The position numbers and the translations under genes are program-made. This document shows positions 10,400-23,187 of a stretch of 64,000 nucleotides of DNA, one piece after another (within the stretch, counting starts at the first letter, position 1; every line of letters starts with the position of its first letter). Below the pieces are notes generated by a model. It did no database searches, had not been told where the DNA came from, and saw nothing but the letters and a program-made list of their open reading frames with translations. The stretch is from Croceitalea dokdonensis DOKDO 023 (lineage in GTDB: Bacteria > Bacteroidota > Bacteroidia > Flavobacteriales > Flavobacteriaceae), in the NCBI RefSeq assembly GCF_001306415.1, contig NZ_LDJX01000003.1, positions 124,001 through 188,000 on the forward strand, given 5' to 3'.

Positions 10400-10466
10400 A
10401 ATATGTTTTTATAAATAAAAATGTATTTTTGGTGAAAGCTATTTGCGAGGCCTTAATTTTTTTTGG

Positions 10467-11123
10467 ATGACACGAGCAGAAGAAAACTACATCAAAGCCA
10501 TTTTTCATTTGGGGGGTCATGGAGGGACGCTAATTTCTACCAATGCCCTTGCCGCTGAAATGGAGACCAAACCTTCCTCAGTTACGGATATGGCTAAAAG
10601 ATTAGGGGACAAACAGCTACTGGACTATGTGCCTTACCAAGGGGTTTGCCTTACCCAAAAAGGAGTTAAAACGGCTCTGGCAGTGATTAGAAAACACCGC
10701 CTTTGGGAAGTATTTTTGGTAAAGAAGTTGGATTTTACATGGGATGAGGTGCACGAGGTAGCGGAACAATTAGAGCATATCAAAAGTGAAAAATTGATAG
10801 ATAAGCTTGATGCCCTATTGGATTTTCCCAAATATGATCCCCATGGAGATCCCATTCCCACCAAAAACGGGGAATTTTTAGAACGGGATAAAGAACTCTT
10901 AAGTGACATTCCCATTCCCTCCTCCGGAATCTGTTTGGGGGTCAAGGATACCTCGGCCAGTTTTTTAAAGTTCTTGGATAAAAACCGCATTGCATTGGGA
11001 GATAAGATAACCGTGATGGAAAAAGAAGCTTTTGATGATTCCCTCCGCATTAAAATAGGGAATCGGGAGCTTCAGATATCCAATCAAATAGCCACCAACC
11101 TGTATGTTAAAATAGAAGCCTGA
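10467..11123 (+). CDS. DtxR/MntR-family metal-dependent transcriptional repressor
   Basis: This 218-aa regulator of metal uptake has an N-terminal winged helix (about residues 1-60; TRAEENYIKAIFHLG, LAAEMETKPSSVTDMAKRLG), the iron-dependent repressor dimerisation and metal-binding domain (about 65-140; VFLVKKLDFTWDEVHEVAEQLEHI, with metal-ligand-like His and Glu residues and DPHGDPIP), and a C-terminal FeoA/SH3-like domain (about 150-218). The ATG at 10467 is chosen over a TTG at 10443 because the family starts at this point. Its stop overlaps the ZIP start (TGATG), so both are one operon. The palindrome at 10384-10399 is the likely operator. Confidence 0.92.
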   Translation: MTRAEENYIKAIFHLGGHGGTLISTNALAAEMETKPSSVTDMAKRLGDKQLLDYVPYQGVCLTQKGVKTALAVIRKHRLWEVFLVKKLDFTWDEVHEVAEQLEHIKSEKLIDKLDALLDFPKYDPHGDPIPTKNGEFLERDKELLSDIPIPSSGICLGVKDTSASFLKFLDKNRIALGDKITVMEKEAFDDSLRIKIGNRELQISNQIATNLYVKIEA

Positions 11124-11944
11124 TGGAACAGATAATAGCCTATTTTGAAGCAATAAATCCCATTTTAGGTGCATTTTACGCTACTCTTTTTACCTGGGGA
11201 CTAACGGCTGCCGGTGCCGGATTGGTTTTTTTATTTAAAAACCCAAGTAGGGCTCTCATGGATGCCATGTTGGGTTTTACCGGCGGTGTTATGGTGGCTG
11301 CAAGTTTTTGGAGTTTGTTGGCCCCCGGCATAGAGATGAGTCCAGGGGAAGGCTTTGTTAAGGTGATTCCTGCGGCGGTTGGATTTCTGTTGGGTGCTTT
11401 TTTCCTGTTTGGGTTGGATAAGGTACTGCCTCATTTACACCTAAATTTTAAGGAGGCCGAAGCAGAGGGAATTAAATCGCCTTGGCATAGGACTACCTTG
11501 CTCACCTTGGCCATAACACTTCATAATATACCAGAGGGTTTGGCAGTGGGTGTTCTTTTTGGGGGCGTTGCCGCCGGATTTGACGGGACTACCATTGGGG
11601 GTGCCGTAGCCCTGGCCTTGGGTATTGGCCTTCAGAATTTTCCAGAGGGCTTCGCAGTAGCCATGCCCCTTAGAAGGCAAGGCCTATCTAGAAGGCGAAG
11701 TTTTCTGTACGGCCAGGCTTCCGCAATTGTGGAACCCATAGCTGCGGTCATTGGAGCGTGGGCGGTCATCACCTTTCAGCCCATTTTGCCATATGCCTTG
11801 GCCTTTGCTGCCGGTGCCATGATTTTTGTGGTCGTGGAAGAAGTAATACCGGAAACACAGCAGGACAAACATTCAGATGTTGCCGTGATGGGGTTTATCG
11901 GTGGGTTTATTGTGATGATGACCCTAGACGTAGGACTTGGCTAA
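11123..11944 (+). CDS. ZIP family metal transporter (ZupT-like)
   Basis: This 273-aa inner-membrane protein imports divalent cations, typically zinc, iron or manganese. It has about eight transmembrane segments. The two metal-site helices are clear: TLHNIPEGLAVGVLFGG (about residues 133-150) and GLQNFPEGFAVAMPLRR (about 173-189), both with the ZIP pattern of N-(I/F)-P-E-G. A histidine-bearing loop (LPHLHLNF) precedes them. Start and stop of the dtxR-like gene overlap it by one base, which ties expression to that repressor. Confidence 0.93.
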   Translation: MEQIIAYFEAINPILGAFYATLFTWGLTAAGAGLVFLFKNPSRALMDAMLGFTGGVMVAASFWSLLAPGIEMSPGEGFVKVIPAAVGFLLGAFFLFGLDKVLPHLHLNFKEAEAEGIKSPWHRTTLLTLAITLHNIPEGLAVGVLFGGVAAGFDGTTIGGAVALALGIGLQNFPEGFAVAMPLRRQGLSRRRSFLYGQASAIVEPIAAVIGAWAVITFQPILPYALAFAAGAMIFVVVEEVIPETQQDKHSDVAVMGFIGGFIVMMTLDVGLG

Positions 11945-12044: not shown

Positions 12045-13061
12045 ATGTACGTCAAAAGCATTTTTAAATTCTTGATTATGGGTTTTGCAGTTCTAAACTG
12101 CTCCCAAAAGGGTAACTTGGATACGGATGAGGAAGTATCTGTGGTTAATAACCTGTTTTACAGAGATGAAATGCGCACGTTTATCCAGAATATTAGTGCA
12201 CATGCCAAGGCTAAAAAACCGGGTTTTGCCATTATTCCGCAAAATGGCATTGAACTCGTAACCACCAACGGGCTGCCCACAAGTGCTATAGAAATGGACT
12301 ATTTAAGCAGTATTGATGCCCATGGGCAGGAATCCTTGTTTTATGGGGATACACGGGATAACGGTAAGACAAAGGAATCACGTTCCACCTATTTAATGAA
12401 TCTCCTGGACATCTCAAAGAATACCGGGAATACGATTATTGTAACCGATTATTGTAGCACTGAGAGTAAGGTGGATGATAGCTATGCATTAAACCTACAA
12501 CACGGTTATGTAGGATTTGCGGCCGATGATAGAAACTTGACCACAATACCTGCATACCCCCAAGAGCCTATTTTGGTGAACGATGAAAATATCCAAGACA
12601 TCCAAAGCGTAAAAAACCATATTTTTCTTTTAAACTACGCAAAGTTCCCAACCAAGGAAGCATTGATTGCCGCCTTAAAGAATACCAATTATGATCTTTT
12701 GGTATTGGATGCCTTTTTTAATGATGGTTCGCCCTTTACCGCGGATGATGTAGCCCAATTAAAACAAAAACAGAACGGTGGGGACCGGCTGGTGGTGAGC
12801 TATATGTCTATTGGAGAGGCCGAGGATTATAGGGGATATTGGGACCTGAATTGGGATTTTGAGGCACCGGATTGGCTCGGAGAGGAAAACCCAAGATGGA
12901 AGGGAAATTACAAGGTAAAATATTGGGACCAAGACTGGCAAGACCTTATTGCGTTTTCAGAAACTTCATACCTCAACGGTATCATAAATGCAGGTTTTGA
13001 TGGCGTCTATATGGACATCGTCGATGCTTTTGAACATTTTGAGGAATTAGAGGGAAACTAG
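12045..13061 (+). CDS. GH114-like TIM-barrel lipoprotein (putative endo-alpha-1,4-polygalactosaminidase family)
   Basis: This 338-aa lipoprotein has the lipobox VLNC at residues 16-19. The rest is a glycoside-hydrolase-like TIM barrel of the GH114/TM1410 type: YDLLVLDAFF (a beta-strand with paired Asp), VVSYMSIGEAEDYRGYW, a tryptophan-rich loop NPRWKGNYKVKYWDQDW, and GFDGVYMDIVDAFEHFE at the C-terminus. Pel systems use a related hydrolase domain in PelA. Its place just before the PelF gene suggests trimming or release of the polymer in the periplasm or at the outer membrane. The two acidic catalytic residues are inferred, not proven. Confidence 0.75.
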   Translation: MYVKSIFKFLIMGFAVLNCSQKGNLDTDEEVSVVNNLFYRDEMRTFIQNISAHAKAKKPGFAIIPQNGIELVTTNGLPTSAIEMDYLSSIDAHGQESLFYGDTRDNGKTKESRSTYLMNLLDISKNTGNTIIVTDYCSTESKVDDSYALNLQHGYVGFAADDRNLTTIPAYPQEPILVNDENIQDIQSVKNHIFLLNYAKFPTKEALIAALKNTNYDLLVLDAFFNDGSPFTADDVAQLKQKQNGGDRLVVSYMSIGEAEDYRGYWDLNWDFEAPDWLGEENPRWKGNYKVKYWDQDWQDLIAFSETSYLNGIINAGFDGVYMDIVDAFEHFEELEGN

Positions 13062-13104
13062 TCTTGTAAGAAAACTTGGAACAACCTTCCCTTCAAAGGA
13101 TAAT

Positions 13105-13114
13105 TTTACCTTTG
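13105..13114 (+). promoter_or_regulatory. candidate -7 element before the PelF gene
   Basis: TTTACCTTTG repeats exactly the ten bases found at 12018-12027. A TTG at 13076-13078 lies further upstream than the usual spacing, so only the -7 box is supported. Confidence 0.4.
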
Positions 13115-13159
13115 GTCTTGCAAAATTGATAGCACCATACTTCTGTGCTTTTTTTGTAA

Positions 13160-13187
13160 GTACGTTTAGAACTGACCGTTAACGTAC
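13160..13187 (+). repeat. inverted repeat just upstream of the PelF start
   Basis: GTACGTT (13160-13166) and AACGTAC (13181-13187) form a perfect 7-bp inverted repeat around 14 bases, ending 5 bases before the TTG start at 13193. As RNA it could shield the ribosome-binding region; as DNA it could be an operator. Confidence 0.5.
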
Positions 13188-13192
13188 ATACT

Positions 13193-14806
13193 TTGGAGCA
13201 CAAAAAAAATGTCTTATTAATTACTGAGGGCACCTATCCGTATATGGGTGGGGGTGTATCCACATGGGCGCATCACCTTACCCAACGTATCACCGGGTAC
13301 GATTTTTCCATTTATTCCCTAAATGCGGATGTGGTAGATGAACCAAAGTTTGTATTGGGCAGTTCTGTCAAAGAGGTGCTACAAGTACCCATGTGGGCAC
13401 CAGAAGAACCCTATGACTGTGTAGATTACAACCAGAAATATTCCCAAATCTTACTTAGGCGGGAACGAACCAATGCTGCGGTAATCATTAACCGCTTTCT
13501 ACCACACTTTAAAAAATTTTTAGCATATACCTTTTTTCCTGAAACTACGCAGGACGATGCTGAACAAAGTGGCTTGCTGGAGGCCTTTCAACGAATGTGG
13601 TCATTTTTTGAAGTCTATGATTATAAAACCACGATGGTCAGTGAACAGGTTTGGAGTTGTTTTAAGAACAATTTAATTGCCCATTGGCCAAAGCAGGAAA
13701 TGGCAGGGGTAAAATTAATGGATTTGACCATGGCGCTCCGTTTGCTGTTCAGGTACCTGATACCTTTGGCCATTAAAGTGCCCAAGTCCGATGTTTCCCA
13801 CCTTACCATTGCCGGTATTGGGATTATCCCGGCCTTAAAGCAAAAACAACAATTTGGCAATCCTATCATATTAACGGAACATGGGGTGTTTATTCGCGAG
13901 CGAATGATAGCGATAAGCAATACGGATTATTCCCAATTTTTAAAGAAGGTTTTGATTCGTTTTTCTGAGGCAATGACCAGACTTACCTATGCCCAAAGCG
14001 ATAAAATTATCTCCGTAAGTAAGTTTAACGTCATTTGGGAACAACGTTATGGTGCAGATGTCTCAAGAATACAGGTAATCTACAACGGTGTGGACCATCA
14101 ATTATTTGCCCCGCAAGAGGATAGCACAAAAAAAGAAAGACCTACCGTTGTTGCGGCTGCAAGAATCTTTGAGCTCAAGGATATTTTAACGATGATCAAA
14201 ACCTGTGCCTACGTAAAAAAAACCATCCCTAATGTTCATTTTCTGGTTTATGGTGATAAAACTGCGGTTCCGGATTATACACAAAGCTGTGAAGCAATGA
14301 TTGCAAAATTGGGGGTAAAAGCCAATTTTAGTTTGGCGGGTTACCATGATACCCCAAGTGCTCTTTTTCATGAGGGCGATATCTCCATTCTCACCTCCAT
14401 ATCCGAGGGTTTCCCTTTTACGGTCATTGAATCCATGAGTTGCGGCATTCCTATTGTTGCAACAGATGTGGGTGGGGTTGCTGAGGCCATTGAAGACGGT
14501 GTTACTGGTTTTATTTGCAAACCTAAAGACCATAAAAGCCTTGGAAAAAGGGTCGTTCAGTTATTGGATGATGTTAAACTAAGGGAACAGATGGGTGCCA
14601 ATGCCAGGAACAAGGTTTTGGAATCCTTTACCATTGAGAAGTTTACGGAATCCTTCTCTAACGCTTATGCGGAGGTGCTGGACACCCCTAAACTTAAATC
14701 ACTAAAGAAAAAAGATAAAGGCAAAAAAAATAAGAAAGACAAGAAAGGCAGTAAAGACAGGAAAAAGAAGCAAAAGAAATCAACTAAATCAGTACAAACG
14801 ATTTAA
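13193..14806 (+). CDS. pelF: PelF-type GT4 glycosyltransferase
   Basis: This cytoplasmic enzyme polymerises nucleotide sugars for a Pel-like exopolysaccharide. The PelF hallmark near the N-terminus is plain: ITEGTYPYMGGGVSTWAHHL (residues 10-29). The acceptor region includes LTEHGVFIRERM, and the GT4 donor site shows SEGFPFTVIESMSCGIPIV with the E-x7-E pattern. At 537 aa it is longer than usual because of a lysine-rich tail from about residue 500 (KKKDKGKKNKKDKKG). The frame is open only from 13160 and has no ATG, so the TTG at 13193 is the start. It is followed 11 bases later by the PelG-like gene. Confidence 0.9.
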   Translation: MEHKKNVLLITEGTYPYMGGGVSTWAHHLTQRITGYDFSIYSLNADVVDEPKFVLGSSVKEVLQVPMWAPEEPYDCVDYNQKYSQILLRRERTNAAVIINRFLPHFKKFLAYTFFPETTQDDAEQSGLLEAFQRMWSFFEVYDYKTTMVSEQVWSCFKNNLIAHWPKQEMAGVKLMDLTMALRLLFRYLIPLAIKVPKSDVSHLTIAGIGIIPALKQKQQFGNPIILTEHGVFIRERMIAISNTDYSQFLKKVLIRFSEAMTRLTYAQSDKIISVSKFNVIWEQRYGADVSRIQVIYNGVDHQLFAPQEDSTKKERPTVVAAARIFELKDILTMIKTCAYVKKTIPNVHFLVYGDKTAVPDYTQSCEAMIAKLGVKANFSLAGYHDTPSALFHEGDISILTSISEGFPFTVIESMSCGIPIVATDVGGVAEAIEDGVTGFICKPKDHKSLGKRVVQLLDDVKLREQMGANARNKVLESFTIEKFTESFSNAYAEVLDTPKLKSLKKKDKGKKNKKDKKGSKDRKKKQKKSTKSVQTI

Positions 14807-14817
14807 TCATCATCCGG

Positions 14818-16401
14818 TTGGGCAGAAAAAAGAATTTTGAAAAGCTAAAGAAGAAAACCTTTCAACGGGTAGGTATTCCTGTTGGGGAGTGGACCGTTTT
14901 GGCCACCATAGAATCCTTTGGCATACGGGAGGTGGATGCAAAACCGGATTATGGCTATGATTCCTTAGTAGAATTGGCTCATGCCATAGAGGAGTCTATT
15001 GCAGGAAATACCAAGGATTGGCAGAAAGCTTCTAAAAATGGCAGTAAACTCTATCCAGTAAATGCCTACATGCAGGTGCCGGTAAACTGGTTTTTTCAAT
15101 ATTATATCTCTGGTCTCGTACAATTGTTCCCAATCCTTATCCAGATTATCGCCATTATTTATTTTAATTATTCACTTTGGACCTATTTGGATTTTAACCT
15201 GTATCAATCTACCGCCGTGGTACTGGGCGTCATTTTAGGTTTTGTCATCTCTGGTGGGTTTGTACAGGTTATAGGTAGGCAGTCCTTCTTTTACTGGCAG
15301 CACAAAAAATACGATAAAGCCAAAGATGTTATTTATACCTTTTTAAGGTTGGGAGCAAAAGGTATGGTATTGGCTCTTTTGGTATTGATTGCCGTTAATT
15401 TCTTCTTTAATTTATATACCCAACGTTTTATGTTGGTTTTGGTGGTCTATGCTTTTCTGGTAGGATTTTTACTCATTACTTTGGCTCCCTTTCATCCTTT
15501 GAACAAAAGATCGATCATAACCTTGAGTATTTCCGTGGCCACCATTCTGGCCTTGGTGCTTTTTAAGTTTACGGACCTTCATGTTTATTTTACCCACTGG
15601 TTAGGTATTGGCGTGGCCATTTTAATTAACCTCCTTTGTTTAAAGGCCTATCTGCCAAAGCAAAAAATTAGCGAAACCGTAGTACAACGGCCTAGAAAAT
15701 TAATGGTGGCCTACAAAACCTATCGGTATTTCTTTTATGGAATACTCATATTTGTGTTTTTCTTTATTGATCGTTTGTTGGCTTGGTCCGTGAACACGGA
15801 TTTAAACAGTGCATTTATTTTTCAATATGAAAAAAACTACGAGATCGGTATGGACTTGGCCATTCTCATGTTCTTTTCACTCGCGGGAGTTTTGGAATAC
15901 GCCATCAGTACTTACAGTCGTTTGTTGGATCAATGGCAAAAGTCCTTTACTGTTTTGGAGGCCAACCGTTTTAACCAAAAGTTTAAACAGCTGTACAATC
16001 GCCATCTCCTAGTATTTCTGGTGACCAGTGTGGTGGCAGGTTTGTTGATCTATCTCATCATTACCCAACCCTGGGGCTACCTAGCAAATTTTGGGGTAGA
16101 GGTACCCCTTTTGAGCATCCATGTTTGTCTTGTAGGGGCAATAGGCTATGTTTTTCTCACTTTGGGAATGATGAACGTTCTGTACATGTTTACGCTTAAC
16201 CGTTCCAAAGAAGGCTTAAACGCCTTGATTGTGGCTACGTTGGCCAACTTTATCATAGGGTTCTTAAGTAGCCGGTTTATAAGTTATGAATATAGTGTTG
16301 TGGGCTTATTGTTTGGAGCTATGGTCTTTATGGTAATGACAACCCATTCCGTAAAAAAATTCTTTAAAAAAATGGATTACGAATACTATGCGGCATATTA
16401 A
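14818..16401 (+). CDS. pelG: PelG-like polytopic membrane protein (exopolysaccharide flippase)
   Basis: This 527-aa protein has a soluble N-terminus of about 90 residues and then about 12 hydrophobic segments of the MATE/Wzx-like PelG type. Context next to PelF supports a role in moving the polymer across the inner membrane. The N-terminal stretch (VGEWTVLATIESFGIREVDA) is unlike the short glycine-rich start of proteobacterial PelG, so this is a divergent member. The start is a TTG at 14818; no ATG is in frame between it and the PelF stop. The 3' end overlaps the next gene by 14 bases. Confidence 0.75.
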   Translation: MGRKKNFEKLKKKTFQRVGIPVGEWTVLATIESFGIREVDAKPDYGYDSLVELAHAIEESIAGNTKDWQKASKNGSKLYPVNAYMQVPVNWFFQYYISGLVQLFPILIQIIAIIYFNYSLWTYLDFNLYQSTAVVLGVILGFVISGGFVQVIGRQSFFYWQHKKYDKAKDVIYTFLRLGAKGMVLALLVLIAVNFFFNLYTQRFMLVLVVYAFLVGFLLITLAPFHPLNKRSIITLSISVATILALVLFKFTDLHVYFTHWLGIGVAILINLLCLKAYLPKQKISETVVQRPRKLMVAYKTYRYFFYGILIFVFFFIDRLLAWSVNTDLNSAFIFQYEKNYEIGMDLAILMFFSLAGVLEYAISTYSRLLDQWQKSFTVLEANRFNQKFKQLYNRHLLVFLVTSVVAGLLIYLIITQPWGYLANFGVEVPLLSIHVCLVGAIGYVFLTLGMMNVLYMFTLNRSKEGLNALIVATLANFIIGFLSSRFISYEYSVVGLLFGAMVFMVMTTHSVKKFFKKMDYEYYAAY

Positions 16402-17194
16402 AATGGTTATGGTCACACTCCTTTTCGCGGTCTTTGCAAAGGCACAACATACTCCCGTTGTTCCATCCACCTTTGTTGTATGCTACGGGAAAGTGTACCC
16501 TTCGCAACTTAGTGGTATAGAACTGGCCATAGTGGAGCCTGGTCATTATGATGAAAAAGGGGTAAAAAGGTTAAAGGCAACTGGCGCCAGAATCCTGGCA
16601 TACCTAAGCTTGACAGAAATAAATACTGCCCACCCAAAGTTTAGGCGTTTGCGTTCATATTGTGTACAGCGTAATGAAAATTGGAACAGCTATTACATTG
16701 ATATTGGAAACCCAGCCGCACAGGACATCTTGGTGGAACATGCCAAGGATTTAATGAAACTGGGCTACGACGGACTTTTTTTTGACAATTTGGACAATAC
16801 CAACCTATGGGGCAAGCTGAGCCATCAGCAGCAAGAGCTTGAATATTTGGTACAACGACTAAGAGATCATTTTCCAAAAACAACATTTGTCCAGAACGGC
16901 GGGTTTCATTTATCCAAAGAAACCCAGAATAAGACGGATTATGTCCTAGTGGAGTCCGTGGTAACCACTTATGATTTTAAGAACCAGAGGTATCTAATTC
17001 GGGATTATGAAGATTTTTTGCAGCGCTTGGCACTGATTGAAAAGTACCAACAAACCTATAACAAACCAGTATTGGCTGTAGAATACCAAAAAGATAATAC
17101 CAAGCATAAATTGATAAGAAGAAGGTTGGAAGGATTTTCCACATCAGTGTTCATAACAACTATAGACCTCCAAGAAATACCTAAACAAGGATAG
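16388..17194 (+). CDS. exported TIM-barrel protein, GH114-like, second copy in the Pel-like locus
   Basis: This 268-aa protein has a signal peptide (to about residue 20; VTLLFAVFAKAQ). A TIM barrel follows with FVVCYGKVYPSQLSGIEL, ARILAYLSLTEIN, a WNSYYIDIGNP strand, GYDGLFFDNLDN and a late VLAVEYQKDN. The paired Asp in FFDNLDN and the Glu in VLVESV sit where GH114-type catalytic residues fall, but that is inferred. It differs from the lipoprotein at 12045 in lacking a lipobox and the W-rich loop, so the two are distant paralogues. It overlaps the PelG-like gene by 14 bases and is followed 4 bases later by a large membrane protein. Hydrolysis or processing of the polymer in the periplasm is likely. 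Confidence 0.7.
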   Translation: MRHIKMVMVTLLFAVFAKAQHTPVVPSTFVVCYGKVYPSQLSGIELAIVEPGHYDEKGVKRLKATGARILAYLSLTEINTAHPKFRRLRSYCVQRNENWNSYYIDIGNPAAQDILVEHAKDLMKLGYDGLFFDNLDNTNLWGKLSHQQQELEYLVQRLRDHFPKTTFVQNGGFHLSKETQNKTDYVLVESVVTTYDFKNQRYLIRDYEDFLQRLALIEKYQQTYNKPVLAVEYQKDNTKHKLIRRRLEGFSTSVFITTIDLQEIPKQG

Positions 17195-17198
17195 TAAA

Positions 17199-19196
17199 AT
17201 GCTCAACAAGATCGTAGACAACATTACGGCAGCACCGCTAAGACTAATTTTATTGGTCTTGGCCTTTTTTGTCCTGCACCAATTGTTGACCAGACAGAAT
17301 ATGGCTAAGTATGACTATCGTTTCTTTTTGGTTCGTTTCTCTATTTATGGTGCACTTACTCTTATTTCAATCTTTTTGCTGATACAGTTAAATATGTACC
17401 ATATTTTTTCTGTGCTGGCGCTTTTATTGGTTTTAATTGGTCTTAGGTACTTTAATTTAAGGGAGCTTATTGCCTATTCCCAAAGTGGTGGTAGGTTTAG
17501 AAGGGCCACTCTTCTGGGTTTTTTCAGGTTTATTGAAAAAAGGGAGACCATTGTTAAAAAGAACTTTAAAAACATGCTCACCGTTTTAAGGCCTAAAAAG
17601 GTGGATTATGGTTTTTTCCTTATTCTGATGGTTGGAATAAGTGCCGTAATCGCAAGGGTGGTCTTTTTGGAAAATGATGTGTACACCTTTTCAAATCTAT
17701 GGGTGCAAACATTGGAAATAGTTAAAAACTTTGATAATAACCAATGGTTTGTACGTGGGCGCAGTCAGGTAGTGGGGGAGCTGGCAGCTATGAATTTCTA
17801 CGCCAACCTTGTTGGTATCAGCAAAGAAATGGCCATATATACCTTTGGATTGTTAGAGAGTTTTCTAATGGCCGCCTTTGTGTTCTATACCGTTAATGCC
17901 CTTACCAATTCTAGGTATTTTGCACCTTTGGTAGCCGGTATTTCGTTTGCATGTCTTTTTGCGTTTTTACCCATAAATATCAATACCCTTTTTCAGCATT
18001 CATCTATTTACCTGAGCTTGCTGTTTGCATTGCCGTTACTTATTTTTTCTTTGATTCCCGCGGAATTGGGAATGCTAAAGAGACGGTATTTTAAAATACA
18101 ATTGGCCTTGGCCATCGCCACAGCGTTTACGGATTTCTATGTCATGTTCATTATTTTACCTGTCTTTTTTGTAGTGGCATGGGCCGTGAATTTTGGTAAG
18201 AAAAGTATTGGGCAGACAGTTCTGGCCTATTTGGGAGGAGTGGTCTTTGTCCTGTCCTTTAAAGTTGTGGTTAGCTTTATAAAAAACATCGATTTTTTAA
18301 CCTATTTTTTGGGGAATATCATTGTCTTTGAAAGTTATAGCTATACACCTCAGTTGTTGGTATCGGAAAGCCAATTGGGGGTGTTGTTCATCGCGCTTGG
18401 ACTATCCGCTTTGTTTGCCGCCCTTGTGTTGTCGATCTTCTTCAAGGCTAAAAAGCGCGCTGCCCTAACCTTTATTTTATTCTACCTGGCACTGCTTGTC
18501 ATCAACAGCTTAGAGGTTTCTTGGTTAGATGCCGATTTATTTAACCAAACCCTTACGGTTTTGGTACCCATTATCATAGGATTTAACGTCTCGTTATTTG
18601 GCAAGTTAGTAGAAAAATTGAGCCCTACCCTCACTTATGTTTATAGTGCCGTGGTGGCAGGAATAATGATTTTTTTAATATTTCAGGGCTATTCCCATAG
18701 CCTCAGGGGCCAAAAGTTTCAAGATGTAAACAAGTTAAAAATAGACTTGTTAAAGGTGTATGACCAATTGTCTACCTATCAAATGAAAAATAGTTATGCC
18801 ATTGTCAATGAGGCTTATGGGGTAAAACTCAGTGGTAAGGAACATATTTTTATCAATTACAGCGACTTTTTGGAAAACTATCTGGAAAGGGATTCCGTGT
18901 ATCACCAAATTAAGGAAGACGTAAGGCTGTTGAATGAAAATCCTGAGTATATCCTTCCCAGCAGTGTTTTTGTGTTTATTTCGGATACCACCCGTACCAA
19001 CGCAAAGGACTACTTTTTAAAAACACCGGGGGAGGTAGCCAATGCATTAAACACACAATTGCAACAACTAAAAAACAGGGGCAGGCAGGTGAACACCTAC
19101 TACACCTCAGAACAGTTAAAAGTACTGGAAATTGTTAACAACGCTAATGGCAGCAACTTAAATGACATGATTTTTGCCTATGAAAAGGATAAGTAA
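17199..19196 (+). CDS. large polytopic membrane protein of the Pel-like locus, function unknown
   Basis: This 665-aa protein has about 12 hydrophobic segments (residues 10-120 and 145-500), then a soluble tail of about 155 residues. It contains no GGDEF, GAF or PilZ pattern, so it is not a plain PelD. Its operon position (overlapping the next gene by 23 bases and 4 bases after the previous stop) suggests an inner-membrane part of the same export machine, perhaps standing in for PelD/PelE. A GT-C-like glycosyltransferase is another possibility, but I see no acidic loop motif that would settle it. Regard the function as open. Confidence 0.75.
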   Translation: MLNKIVDNITAAPLRLILLVLAFFVLHQLLTRQNMAKYDYRFFLVRFSIYGALTLISIFLLIQLNMYHIFSVLALLLVLIGLRYFNLRELIAYSQSGGRFRRATLLGFFRFIEKRETIVKKNFKNMLTVLRPKKVDYGFFLILMVGISAVIARVVFLENDVYTFSNLWVQTLEIVKNFDNNQWFVRGRSQVVGELAAMNFYANLVGISKEMAIYTFGLLESFLMAAFVFYTVNALTNSRYFAPLVAGISFACLFAFLPININTLFQHSSIYLSLLFALPLLIFSLIPAELGMLKRRYFKIQLALAIATAFTDFYVMFIILPVFFVVAWAVNFGKKSIGQTVLAYLGGVVFVLSFKVVVSFIKNIDFLTYFLGNIIVFESYSYTPQLLVSESQLGVLFIALGLSALFAALVLSIFFKAKKRAALTFILFYLALLVINSLEVSWLDADLFNQTLTVLVPIIIGFNVSLFGKLVEKLSPTLTYVYSAVVAGIMIFLIFQGYSHSLRGQKFQDVNKLKIDLLKVYDQLSTYQMKNSYAIVNEAYGVKLSGKEHIFINYSDFLENYLERDSVYHQIKEDVRLLNENPEYILPSSVFVFISDTTRTNAKDYFLKTPGEVANALNTQLQQLKNRGRQVNTYYTSEQLKVLEIVNNANGSNLNDMIFAYEKDK

Positions 19197-22100
19197 AGCC
19201 ATACTACCTTTGGTAATGATGCTCTGGGTCGTCTCCTGTAAGACGACCACGGACGCCTATGGTGATTTTGAGACCTTGGTAAAGAGTGGGGAGGCTCCAT
19301 TGGTCACCCTATTGGTGGATGATGTAGAGCATGTCCAAGAGGACCCCTTTACTCAAATAAAGAAAGCCGCGGATTACGCAAAAATAGCGGTCACGGAAAA
19401 ACCTATGAGCGTTTTTAACACATACGGAAAAATAGCACCGTCTACCCGTATCATTTGTATAGAAGATACCTACCCCATTAGTGATATGGCGGTAGATTCC
19501 TTGCACACTTTTGTGGCAAAAGGCGGTACGTTGTTTTTGGCCAAGACCACCTTTGATGAACGTATGGTATTTTTAATGGGGCTGTCCCCCAGCTATAAAA
19601 TGGTTGCGGATACAGAGGCCACGGGAATAAAGTTTAAGGAAAATGTACTTCCGGAAATGGCGGGTTTGCACATTGTAGAGGACACAAAGCACACCGGCCT
19701 AAGAGGGGAAAACTTCTCCCAGCGTACCAAAGTCTTGGCAACAGCCTTGAATTCTGATGATTTTCCGGTGATTACCTTAAATAATGTCGGTAATGGAAAA
19801 GTGGTGCTTTTTAATTCTGTTTTAGATTTTGATAAGCGTACAAGGGGCCTGGTGTTTGCGCAACTTCTCGCAGGGTTGGAAGGTGTTCCATATCCAGTGG
19901 CCAATGTGGCCAACATCCATTTGGATGATTTTCCCGCTCCGGTATACGATATTTACAAAGAACCGGTAAAGACACAAATGGGCTTAAACATGTCGGACTA
20001 TGTAACCAATGTCTGGTGGCCAGATATGCAAGATTTAGCACGTAAACATGACTTAAAATATACGGCATACCCTGCTTTTGATTACAACTATAGTGTAAGT
20101 CCGCCATTTATTTTTGAAGAATGGGAAGCCAATAGGTTCAACAAAAATGACTATGATCAGGAAATTAGCGGATGGCTGGGCAGGGATGTGCTTAGGAAGG
20201 GTCACGAACTTGGTTTTCACGGGTATAATCATGTTTCCCTTACCCAATATGAATGGGATCAACCAGATTATATGGTTACCGCGCTAAATGCTGCCGCCAA
20301 AAAATGGAAAACCTCAAAATTTAGGAACCTACCAACTTCCTATGTACCTCCGTCCAATATTATAGACAGTTTGGGCTTGGCAAAACTTAAAGAAGGTATG
20401 CCCTCCTTAAAGTATATGCAAAGTATTTATTTGGGCAAGCGGGAAGACGGCGGAAATAGGGAGTTTGAACCAGACCCCTACAATCCCCATTTTTTTGATG
20501 TTCCAAGGATTTCTAGTGGTTATTTTTTGAAGGATAAATCAAAATTCAATATATCCTCCTTGTTTTTGCTTACCGGTATTTGGACGCATTTTGTGCACCC
20601 GGATGATGTTTTCCAAATTCCCGATGGGAGCAACGCAACCACGGCAGGAAGTTATGGGTATAGAAACCCGGAAGAGTTGCCTTGGCGCACCTTTAAAGGC
20701 AAAAAAGGACTTTTGGAAACTTTTGATGGTGAACTTACCCTTTTTAAGGAACATTACCCACTTACCAGGTTTATGACGGCCACAGCTGCTGCGGAGTCCA
20801 TTGTTAAATGGAGGTATGCTTACTATCAACATATAAATAAAGATGGCCTTTATGCTGTGTTGAGCGATGATTTCATGGACGACGAAAAATTTGAGAATTA
20901 CTGGTTTACCTACGTGAGCGAGGCAAATGATGCCCTTTTTGAGCGCAACTTGGAAAGCGAGGTGATGTTCTACCACAAATCCAAATTTTTAGATGGATAT
21001 CTTTATCAGATAAAGACAGATGGTGCCTTTATATCCTTGGTGGATTTAAAATATGAGAATCAGGGCAATGAACAACAGCTTAGTGCCATCATAGAGGAAG
21101 AGCGCCAAAAGTTTCAGCGGGCAAAATTTGATCTTCTTCCCTTTTTGACCAGGTTAGAAGAGCTTAAAAACCTAGGGGAGTACAACACTGCCGCCAGTTT
21201 GGTGGAAAAGGAGGTAAAAAACGGAAAAAACCTGCCCTTGGCAGAATGGATGACTTACGCCCAGCTCCTGTCTTGGCAAAATAATCCAGGACGTTTTTGG
21301 TCCTTTTTAGAGGAAACGTATCAAGACAACCCGTCCAACAATTTAATTTATTTGGCCTTAAAGGCCGATAAAACCTATGGTGTGCCAACCCAAGACATCT
21401 CGGAAAGATGGCTCTCCCGTGCCATTGGGGCCAACTTGGGCGGCTTGCCCATTTTACGGGAGTATGCCCAGTCTTTTGATACAGAGGGGAACCAAGAAAA
21501 CATAAAACAGACCTTGTTCAAAATTTATAAGCTCACCGGTAATGATGACGATCAGTTGGCGTACTTGCGTTATTTGGTAGATTCCAAGGATGCCAATCTT
21601 ATCACGGAGCTCAACAATGCGGTTCCTTGCAGTGGTAAATTAAGCGATATAGCTTATGATATTGCATGGGCCTATGCAGATAACTTTGATTTTAACGCTG
21701 CTTACCAATGGTCTAAATGCAGCACCCAAATAGATAGGGAAACTGCTGATGATTGGTTCTACAAATCCAAATATTTTGAAGAATTAAAGGACAAGGAACC
21801 CTACACGTATTTTGGCATTTTATTGCGTACCGATGAGAATAGGGCTTTTAAGGAATTGGAGTTGGTACAGATATGTACAAGGGAGCTAAGGCCACTGGCA
21901 GGCCAAATTGCAGAGTTGTTTGGGGATAATGAGGACTACCGGGGTGCCGTTGCATGGTCCAAATGCGCTAAGACCGTACCCGTAAAAAAATTGATGCTAT
22001 GGCAATACGAATTAAAAAACTATGTGCAGGTAAAAAAAATCTACCAGCATTATATCATTGAGCATCCCAAAGCCTATGATGTCATGACGCAAATGGCCCG

Positions 22101-23187
22101 TATCCATTTATACATGGGAGATTTACAATCAATGGCAAAATTGGTGGCACAATTACCTCCAAGTACAGACTTTGTGCAGCTGCGGGGGCTCCTCAACAAA
22201 AATATTGAGTATGCAGATTTAAAGTTAAAGAAGCATCTTATTTATACCTATGATGCACTTTTTAGTGAAAAGACCAAAAAAGAGATCAAAGAAGAAATAA
22301 GGGTTCAGCGTGGGAATGATTTCTTTTTTCAGGGCAGTTCCATGAATGATCGTTTTGACCCCACCCAACTGGAGTTTACGGGAGGGTACGATCTCATAGA
22401 CAAAAGAGAGAACATCCATAGGCTCGCGGGGGTTCGGGGCTTTGTGTTCCCCATCAATTTTATTACCAATGAACCAGATAATCTTGAGCGTAATTTAATA
22501 GGCTTGCAGTATGGCTTTACCAAAAAACTGAATGAAAAAAATGAAGTGGGCCTTATGGCAAGGGTAGAGGGGGATAATGCCAACAACACCTTTTTACAGG
22601 CCGGTGCTTCTTGGAACCGTACTGGCTCCAATACCTTTTTGGCCACACAGTTAACTTACCGTCCGGTACAGACCGGTCCGGGTTACGTGCGCAATATTTA
22701 CCAGACCTTATTTTCATTGTATGCAGAGCTGGGAACCACCAACCGTATCAAACCAATTTTCACTTTAGAGGGCAATCAGTACTCAGATGATAATATGGAT
22801 GCGACTGTCAACACCAGGATTGAGGCCCAATTAATAAAAGGAGCTGTTTTGGAGCTAACACCCTTGGTAGAAGGTGCGTATTCCCTGGCTACGGATGATC
22901 TTCGAGATGGCTTTCCATACTGGATGGCAGATAATCGCTTGATTGCTGGTGGAGGCTTGGCACTTCGTCTTGGGAAATTGGAGAGCAAGTTCTATTTGGA
23001 TACCAGTGCCACGTTGTTTTACGAAAATCAGGGGGAACCCACTTTTGAAAGATATTTGGCAAATTTAAACGTAAAGATCAAAAAGTATTTTACGGTCTCC
23101 GCAGGGGCGGAATTCTATACCATAGAAAGCTTTTTTTCCAACGCCTTTAACTTAGGTCTCAAATATGATATCAGTCCTTTAAAATAG
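19180..23187 (+). CDS. deacetylase-TPR-beta-barrel fusion lipoprotein (PelA-like plus PelB-like)
   Basis: This 1335-aa lipoprotein (lipobox VVSC, Cys20) appears to fuse parts that are separate proteins in Pseudomonas. Residues about 30-240 form an N-terminal domain of unknown fold. About 240-600 is a carbohydrate-deacetylase-like domain (DUF2194 type) with ANIHLDDFPAP (metal Asp pair, about 245-252) and GHELGFHGYNHVS (H-x3-H pattern, about 343-355). About 640-1045 is an alpha-helical repeat, TPR-like region. About 1060-1335 has alternating beta-strands of an outer-membrane barrel, ending in LGLKYDISPLK. It would deacetylate the polymer and lead it out through one protein. The start is MKRISK at 19180; an ATG six bases upstream is also possible. 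It overlaps the preceding gene by 17 bases. Confidence 0.8.
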   Translation: MKRISKAILPLVMMLWVVSCKTTTDAYGDFETLVKSGEAPLVTLLVDDVEHVQEDPFTQIKKAADYAKIAVTEKPMSVFNTYGKIAPSTRIICIEDTYPISDMAVDSLHTFVAKGGTLFLAKTTFDERMVFLMGLSPSYKMVADTEATGIKFKENVLPEMAGLHIVEDTKHTGLRGENFSQRTKVLATALNSDDFPVITLNNVGNGKVVLFNSVLDFDKRTRGLVFAQLLAGLEGVPYPVANVANIHLDDFPAPVYDIYKEPVKTQMGLNMSDYVTNVWWPDMQDLARKHDLKYTAYPAFDYNYSVSPPFIFEEWEANRFNKNDYDQEISGWLGRDVLRKGHELGFHGYNHVSLTQYEWDQPDYMVTALNAAAKKWKTSKFRNLPTSYVPPSNIIDSLGLAKLKEGMPSLKYMQSIYLGKREDGGNREFEPDPYNPHFFDVPRISSGYFLKDKSKFNISSLFLLTGIWTHFVHPDDVFQIPDGSNATTAGSYGYRNPEELPWRTFKGKKGLLETFDGELTLFKEHYPLTRFMTATAAAESIVKWRYAYYQHINKDGLYAVLSDDFMDDEKFENYWFTYVSEANDALFERNLESEVMFYHKSKFLDGYLYQIKTDGAFISLVDLKYENQGNEQQLSAIIEEERQKFQRAKFDLLPFLTRLEELKNLGEYNTAASLVEKEVKNGKNLPLAEWMTYAQLLSWQNNPGRFWSFLEETYQDNPSNNLIYLALKADKTYGVPTQDISERWLSRAIGANLGGLPILREYAQSFDTEGNQENIKQTLFKIYKLTGNDDDQLAYLRYLVDSKDANLITELNNAVPCSGKLSDIAYDIAWAYADNFDFNAAYQWSKCSTQIDRETADDWFYKSKYFEELKDKEPYTYFGILLRTDENRAFKELELVQICTRELRPLAGQIAELFGDNEDYRGAVAWSKCAKTVPVKKLMLWQYELKNYVQVKKIYQHYIIEHPKAYDVMTQMARIHLYMGDLQSMAKLVAQLPPSTDFVQLRGLLNKNIEYADLKLKKHLIYTYDALFSEKTKKEIKEEIRVQRGNDFFFQGSSMNDRFDPTQLEFTGGYDLIDKRENIHRLAGVRGFVFPINFITNEPDNLERNLIGLQYGFTKKLNEKNEVGLMARVEGDNANNTFLQAGASWNRTGSNTFLATQLTYRPVQTGPGYVRNIYQTLFSLYAELGTTNRIKPIFTLEGNQYSDDNMDATVNTRIEAQLIKGAVLELTPLVEGAYSLATDDLRDGFPYWMADNRLIAGGGLALRLGKLESKFYLDTSATLFYENQGEPTFERYLANLNVKIKKYFTVSAGAEFYTIESFFSNAFNLGLKYDISPLK

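Follow-up and report, generated by a model that had tools for sequence, protein, structure and literature searches.

A conserved Pel-like exopolysaccharide operon of Bacteroidota without PelD encodes a predicted GT-C-fold membrane protein and a deacetylase-barrel fusion

Among the polymers of biofilm matrices Pel is a major one, in the P. aeruginosa type a partly deacetylated alpha-1,4-GalNAc. All published systems that we found retain PelD, in P. aeruginosa the cyclic di-GMP receptor. In Pseudomonas aeruginosa the machinery is encoded by pelABCDEFG, while the Gram-positive pelDEADAFG clusters of Bacillus cereus and Streptococcus intermedius keep PelD and PelE and need both (PMC7112168, PMC12345266); in S. 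intermedius, Pel is produced without cyclic di-GMP and PelD lacks the GGDEF domain (PMC12345266). Two of the key surveys never mention Bacteroidota, and no description of a Bacteroidota pel cluster, or of a GT-C protein in one, was found in the literature covered, which left out preprints and most subscription papers. Here we analyse computationally a locus of Croceitalea dokdonensis DOKDO 023, located at positions 12045-23187 of a stretch of 64,000 nucleotides, the window (positions 124,001 to 188,000 of contig NZ_LDJX01000003.1, assembly GCF_001306415.1). The locus represents a conserved Pel variant of Bacteroidota, undescribed in that literature, the architecture of which is well supported. 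Its genes 2-6 probably encode a five-gene, Pel-like synthase-dependent exopolysaccharide machine that makes, deacetylates and exports an amino-sugar polymer without PelD.

The first-pass annotation of the window had recorded six close genes on one strand, with PelF, a PelG-like protein, two GH114-like proteins, a polytopic protein and a deacetylase-TPR-barrel protein, and all six open reading frames (ORFs) were recovered on the plus strand at the positions it gave. Gene 1 is separated from gene 2 by 131 base pairs (bp), and genes 2-6 overlap or lie within 11 bp of each other as described, with successive spacings of +11, -14, +4 and -23 bp. The genes and the domains of gene 6, with protein lengths in amino acids (aa), are as follows:

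12045-13061, + strand: gene 1, 338 aa, putative glycoside hydrolase of the GH114/TM1410 type, accessory
13193-14806, + strand: gene 2, 537 aa, PelF, GT4 polysaccharide synthase by sequence
14818-16401, + strand: gene 3, 527 aa, divergent PelG-like putative flippase
16388-17194, + strand: gene 4, 268 aa, free-standing PelA-type (GH166/GH114) putative hydrolase with signal peptide
17199-19196, + strand: gene 5, 665 aa, integral membrane protein with predicted GT-C glycosyltransferase fold
19174-23187, + strand: gene 6, 1337 aa, lipoprotein with PelADA-type deacetylase, TPR and predicted 16-strand barrel
19273-20853, + strand: gene 6 residues 34-560, CBM114-CE26 de-N-acetylase of the PelADA type, by comparison with 9zau
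21085-22311, + strand: gene 6 residues about 638-1046, TPR superhelix predicted by AlphaFold
22315-23172, + strand: gene 6 residues about 1048-1333, 16-strand outer-membrane barrel predicted by AlphaFold

With the P. aeruginosa system the operon has in common PelF, a PelG-like protein, homologues of the PelA hydrolase and of the PelA deacetylase and a PelB-type TPR-barrel protein. Judged by sequence, the assignment of gene 2 as PelF is secure: the protein scores 159.1 bits against the PelF equivalog NF038011 of NCBIfam (cut-off 100) and 178.6 bits against DUF3492 (cut-off 23.3), and its E-x7-E motif, SEGFPFTVIE, is invariant in 10 homologues. Two of the six proteins match GH114 of Pfam (cut-off 27), gene 1 with 58.6 and gene 4 with 62.0 bits. 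A profile of gene 4 retrieves PelA structures from the PDB (5tcb, E 4.9e-34; 9cgy, E 5.3e-33) ahead of the weaker TM1410 and endo-alpha-1,4-polygalactosaminidase 6oj1, and the alignment identifies gene 4 as a free-standing PelA hydrolase domain. Both Asp133 and Glu189 of gene 4 are conserved without exception across 34 sequences. The catalytic residue of the PelA hydrolase is E218 (PMC9894940), to which Glu189 would correspond as read from the aligned ES(I) motif and not from the numbering.

The modification and export functions appear to be joined in gene 6. Residues 34-560 align over 527 residues with B. cereus PelADA (PDB 9zau, E 5.8e-70), a polymer de-N-acetylase required for Pel and the founder of CE26 and CBM114, with the catalytic motifs DD, HxxxH, PP, R and HPDD (PMC13254593). 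Nine homologues all retain the gene 6 counterparts DDFP, HGYNH, YVPPSN, PR and HPDD (invariant columns D251, D252, H349, H353, P392/P393, R445, H475, D477 and D478). The AlphaFold model of residues 570-1337 shows TPR helices followed by 16 strands, with a predicted local distance difference test score (pLDDT) of 89.6 and a predicted template modelling score (pTM) of 0.55, so that the relative placement of the domains is unsure. Foldseek matches this C-terminal part with BcsC (E 1.1e-10), PgaA (template modelling (TM) score 0.72) and PelBC (9h80, E 1.1e-6); the likeness to PelB is thus at the level of the fold only, BcsC and PgaA matching better. A lipobox cysteine, Cys22, is present, and a strict lipobox pattern is found in 69 of 80 homologues. 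By homology and predicted structure, gene 6 is in effect a lipidated PelA deacetylase fused to a PelB equivalent, a single chain in which the link between polymer modification and export becomes testable. In an Aquimarina locus (L081:9947-13994) gene 6 is split into two ORFs of 813 and 452 aa, by a frameshift or a sequencing error.

In contrast to P. aeruginosa, the window operon has no PelC, PelD, PelE or cyclic di-GMP receptor, its PelADA (CE26) deacetylase is lipidated and fused to the barrel, and a GT-C-fold protein is added. On the evidence of sequence and models, PelA is split in two with its deacetylase half fused to the PelB equivalent, and PelC, PelD and PelE are without equivalents in the operon. 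As the first-pass annotation had stated, none of these three was recognised in the six proteins by Pfam search, and PelC and PelE genes within the operon are excluded because genes 2-6 abut or overlap and leave no room; elsewhere in the genome no search for them was made. Compared with the Gram-positive clusters, the operon shares PelF, a PelG-like protein, the PelADA-type deacetylase, the separate PelA-type hydrolase and, with S. intermedius, probably the independence from cyclic di-GMP (PMC7112168, PMC12345266), and differs in that neither PelD nor PelE was found and that the TPR-barrel and the GT-C protein are added. A conserved operon of this composition shows which parts of the Pel machine may be dispensable.

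Conservation was assessed with an alignment of the N-terminal part of gene 6, used to scan a single genome from each species; this gave 190 relatives, and the best 80 were kept. Of their contigs 69 span the region, and the remaining 11 are truncated within it. The relatives are nearly all Flavobacteriaceae (Maribacter, Flavobacterium, Mesonia, Salegentibacter, Gillisia, Aquimarina and others), with Roseivirga in addition. PelF, PelG, GH114, gene 5 and gene 6 follow each other in this order on one strand in 69/69 spanning contigs; since the five-gene order recurs throughout, the locus is not a product of chance. Within the family of the window genome the operon is patchy, gene 5 occurring in 10/301 genomes, and among 396 Bacteroidota genomes the PelF-positive and the gene-5-positive sets are the same 26 (Fisher p 3e-41, uncorrected for kinship). 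When gene 5 was compared as a single sequence with named genomes, no relatives were found. Gene 1 was ruled out as a core member, as upstream of the operon it is absent in 45 of the 69 loci, on the same strand in 20 and divergent in 4; it scores 179.4 bits against TIGR01370 (cut-off 181.25) and carries a likely lipoprotein signal (..VLNCSQK).

The window copy of gene 5 matches no Pfam family, and the matches of 57 homologues are scattered and at the level of chance; the sole NCBIfam match of the window copy is marginal (E 0.08), and the gene 5 sequence profile matches no solved structure, including any solved GT-C member. The AlphaFold model (pLDDT 87.4, pTM 0.88) is predicted to have a GT-C fold: the 18 best Foldseek matches in the PDB, with E-values up to 0.044, all belong to GT-C proteins, including OST/STT3, DPY19, AftA, AftD, ALG9, ALG12, ArnT and AglB, the best at probability 1.00, and unrelated transporters enter the list from E 0.09 with probabilities of at most 0.2. 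Gene 5 thus resembles members of the GT-C superfamily such as OST/STT3, DPY19, ArnT and AftA in predicted fold and membrane layout, with a charged cytoplasmic stretch (residues 86-136), a transmembrane helix (137-159), Asp160 and two short helices, but is without sequence similarity to solved members or to a Pfam family, and its loop acid is not universal. Conserved positions are Arg153, the loop Asp160 (17676-17678), which is invariant in 58 homologues, Asp444 and the C-terminal periplasmic domain (residues 504-665). Entropy is lowest (about 1.6-1.8 bits) in the cores of the C-terminal domain and in two periplasmic loops, the first one and that at residues 253-268, and highest (2.7-3.1 bits) in cytoplasmic loops; with membrane sides assigned from charge and topology, the conserved residues are predicted to face the periplasm.

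From these kinships and models we infer the chemistry of the polymer, its transport path and the activity of each protein as follows. PelF would polymerise an N-acetylhexosamine in the cytoplasm, by homology from UDP-GalNAc, and passage of the chain through the inner membrane would fall to the PelG-like protein. In the periplasm gene 5 would act on or hold the emerging chain, either by transferring a lipid-linked sugar to it or as a GT-C-fold docking subunit, and the gene 4 hydrolase would trim or clear polymer. The lipid-anchored gene 6 would strip acetyl groups, the cationic polymer being threaded through the TPR tunnel and the 16-strand barrel.

Several observations weigh against this reading. 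The identity of gene 3 as PelG is weak by score, as the protein reaches only 25.7 bits against the Pfam PelG family (cut-off 29), although the match spans residues 95-524 and nearly the whole model. Among its homologues 4/10 match the family (best E 1.2e-8), and a sequence profile of gene 3 has no match among solved structures. The protein has 12 predicted transmembrane segments (15100-16389) preceded by a soluble N-terminal domain of about 85 aa (14818-15087), which resembles, with weak scores in a small set (best E 1e-6), the start of the proteins in PelG position in Deinococcus, Thermus and Streptomyces. The GT-C matches of gene 5 have TM-scores of about 0.4 and a large root-mean-square deviation; the protein is therefore assigned at superfamily level only, and the match rests on the Foldseek E-values and the consistency of the matches. 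In families f24, f13 and f31 the position of Asp160 is occupied by Asn or His, which argues against a universal catalytic role of the loop acid, and the operon has no gene for an enzyme providing a lipid-linked sugar donor. The operons of these families also encode a second, short PelF-like GT4 of about 395 aa (L158:4927-6096 and relatives); that this gene and the replacement of Asp160 share lineages is a single evolutionary contrast and no proof alone.

Within a Pel-like machine, the role of gene 5 can be conceived in two ways. As an active GT-C transferase, it would attach to the chain a sugar taken from a polyprenyl-phosphate donor, as a branch, cap or anchor, and the product would be a decorated Pel. 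This proposal, which we hold tentatively and at less than an even chance, is consistent with the exclusive GT-C matches at the top of the Foldseek list, with the periplasmic position of the conserved residues and with an invariant Asp which, as in GT-C enzymes, follows helix 137-159 and precedes two short helices; the substitutions in f24, f13 and f31 and the missing donor gene speak against it, as does 8imx_U in the match list, which we take to be PIG-U, a subunit with GT-C fold that is not regarded as catalytic. Alternatively, gene 5 would be without catalytic activity, a scaffold of GT-C fold that replaces PelD/PelE as the platform of PelF and PelG and passes the chain on to gene 6, a possibility that likewise falls short of even. 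That the gene is tied to PelF as strictly as PelD/PelE are elsewhere, and is kept where the loop acid is lost, suits a scaffold, but its cytoplasmic parts are the least conserved (2.7-3.1 bits vs 1.8 in the first periplasmic loop), unlike a platform for the cytoplasmic PelF, and the deeply conserved periplasmic acids suggest contact with a substrate. The strict tie of PelF to a GT-C-fold protein makes it worth asking if decoration or anchoring occurs in some Pel-like polymers. The most far-reaching combination would be a Pel branch that never had PelD and is controlled without cyclic di-GMP, in which the cytoplasmic PelF and a periplasmic GT-C transferase are obligate partners and a lipid-linked sugar decorates, caps or anchors the chain after export; we regard this as rather unlikely.

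Departing from a Pel-like machine altogether, the operon product might be unrelated to Pel, composed of another sugar or linkage, with the Pel labels reflecting distant family kinship only. The identity of gene 2 to plasmid-borne PelF homologues of other phyla of only 25-33%, the PelG match below cut-off and the epimerase and nucleotidyltransferase genes that related Deinococcus and Streptomyces clusters carry point in this direction. Against it, homologues of a GalNAc-polymer deacetylase and of the PelA hydrolase share the operon with PelF, and as three separate Pel-acting families agree, such a product is disfavoured and considered unlikely. The designation of the locus as a Pel variant in the first-pass annotation is supported. 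The reading of gene 5, the one membrane protein of the operon that lacks an assignment, as PelD/PelE in highly diverged form or as another cyclic di-GMP receptor is scarcely credible and was rejected, since neither the PelD or PilZ domain that the first-pass annotation had named as contrary evidence nor GAF or GGDEF is matched by Pfam, the confident model shows another, GT-C-like fold with a periplasmic conserved face, and the genome is without GGDEF and PilZ.

Returning to the Pel-like machine, its lack of PelD had been explained as an adaptation to a phylum without the cyclic di-GMP signal. Neither GGDEF, with the control of the search working, nor PilZ was found in the window genome (99.99% complete), which has one DAC domain of the cyclic di-AMP synthase family, and cyclic di-GMP is very unlikely to be a switch in this organism. 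A genome search for PelD_GGDEF was empty, but as its control remained silent too, this result is given no weight of its own. The premise that Bacteroidetes seldom use cyclic di-GMP is too broad, as GGDEF is present in 203/396 sampled Bacteroidota genomes. GGDEF is rarer in operon-bearing genomes (3/26 vs 200/370, uncorrected for kinship), and 30/33 operon-bearing genomes are without it, as are the f24 genomes tested; those of f13 and f31 possess GGDEF and nevertheless carry the PelD-free operon. These counts, the f13 and f31 operons and the PelF tree rule out the absence of GGDEF as main cause of a PelD loss, and the proposed adaptation is not supported.

In the PelF tree, the Bacteroidota proteins form one group (support 99/97) adjoining Deinococcus, Thermus and Streptomyces, and a branch with support 100/99 parts Bacteroidota plus Deinococcota/Streptomyces from Paracoccus, Cetobacterium and Fusobacterium. 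Because of several long branches, the placement of Thermus and of Paracoccus is uncertain. No PelD/PelE is annotated in the PelF/PelG clusters of Deinococcus, Thermus and Streptomyces, and as these sister groups are PelD-free the absence of PelD looks ancestral. Read from this tree, PelD was probably never part of this Pel branch, and its absence appears both to precede any loss of cyclic di-GMP and to be independent of it. These plasmid clusters (L169-L171, L175) resemble the window operon in their sister PelF, the similar N-terminal domain in PelG position and GH114, and differ from it by having no gene 5 relative by profile and no DUF2194-barrel fusion. Altogether, no relative of gene 5 was detected by profile in PelF clusters of other phyla (five plasmid loci and Paracoccus; Fusobacterium vincentii, L174, was left out). 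A Cetobacterium plasmid cluster (L172) shares PelF, PelG, a DUF2194 deacetylase and GH114, but it has a GAF protein with three transmembrane segments in the place of PelD and no GT-C protein, and its PelF falls outside the Bacteroidota-Deinococcota/Streptomyces branch. Among plasmids, only Cetobacterium and Fusobacterium matched the DUF2194 query. Some Deinococcus, Thermus and Streptomyces clusters (L169, L170, L171, L175) include epimerase and nucleotidyltransferase genes.

The additional proposal that the operon has its own control is unproven, as the window operon has no regulator gene, and promoter and terminator patterns in it are no more frequent than in shuffled sequence. In f24 and f13, response-regulator genes precede the operon and an HD-domain protein is encoded between PelG and GH114, and in f31 genes for SpoIIE-type and GAF-HD proteins separate gene 5 from gene 6; this suggests another mode of control in these families and is no evidence for the window. 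In the HD-domain (HD-GYP-like) protein of f24 and f13 (L158:9325-10947, L163:9684-11315 and relatives), GTP or GMP replaces the GYP motif.

Further observations concern the surroundings of the operon. Directly upstream of the locus (10443-11944), a DtxR/MntR-like regulator and a ZIP-type metal transporter were read from the sequence, and 14 named loci, most of them from Maribacter and of one clade only, have the MntR/ZIP pair in the same upstream place. As B. cereus PelADA is metal dependent (PMC13254593), by analogy a link between metal supply and the operon via these neighbours is possible. In Sediminicola luteus (L038:1989-2942) an additional PelG-like piece of 317 aa is located upstream of gene 1. 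The convergent downstream gene of L036:13797-15443 and 34 other Flavobacterium-type loci codes for a DUF4832/DUF4874 protein that carries a Por secretion tail and may be a secreted enzyme with the polymer of the operon as its substrate. In genome G651 a decayed second operon copy with pieces of PelF, PelG and gene 5 and a GH114 gene (L162:15274-19089) lies beside the intact one. Finally, contigs titled Bifidobacterium breve (L061) and Sphingobacterium thalpophilum (L054) carry Flavobacterium-like operons and are probably misbinned or mislabelled contigs of metagenome-assembled genomes.

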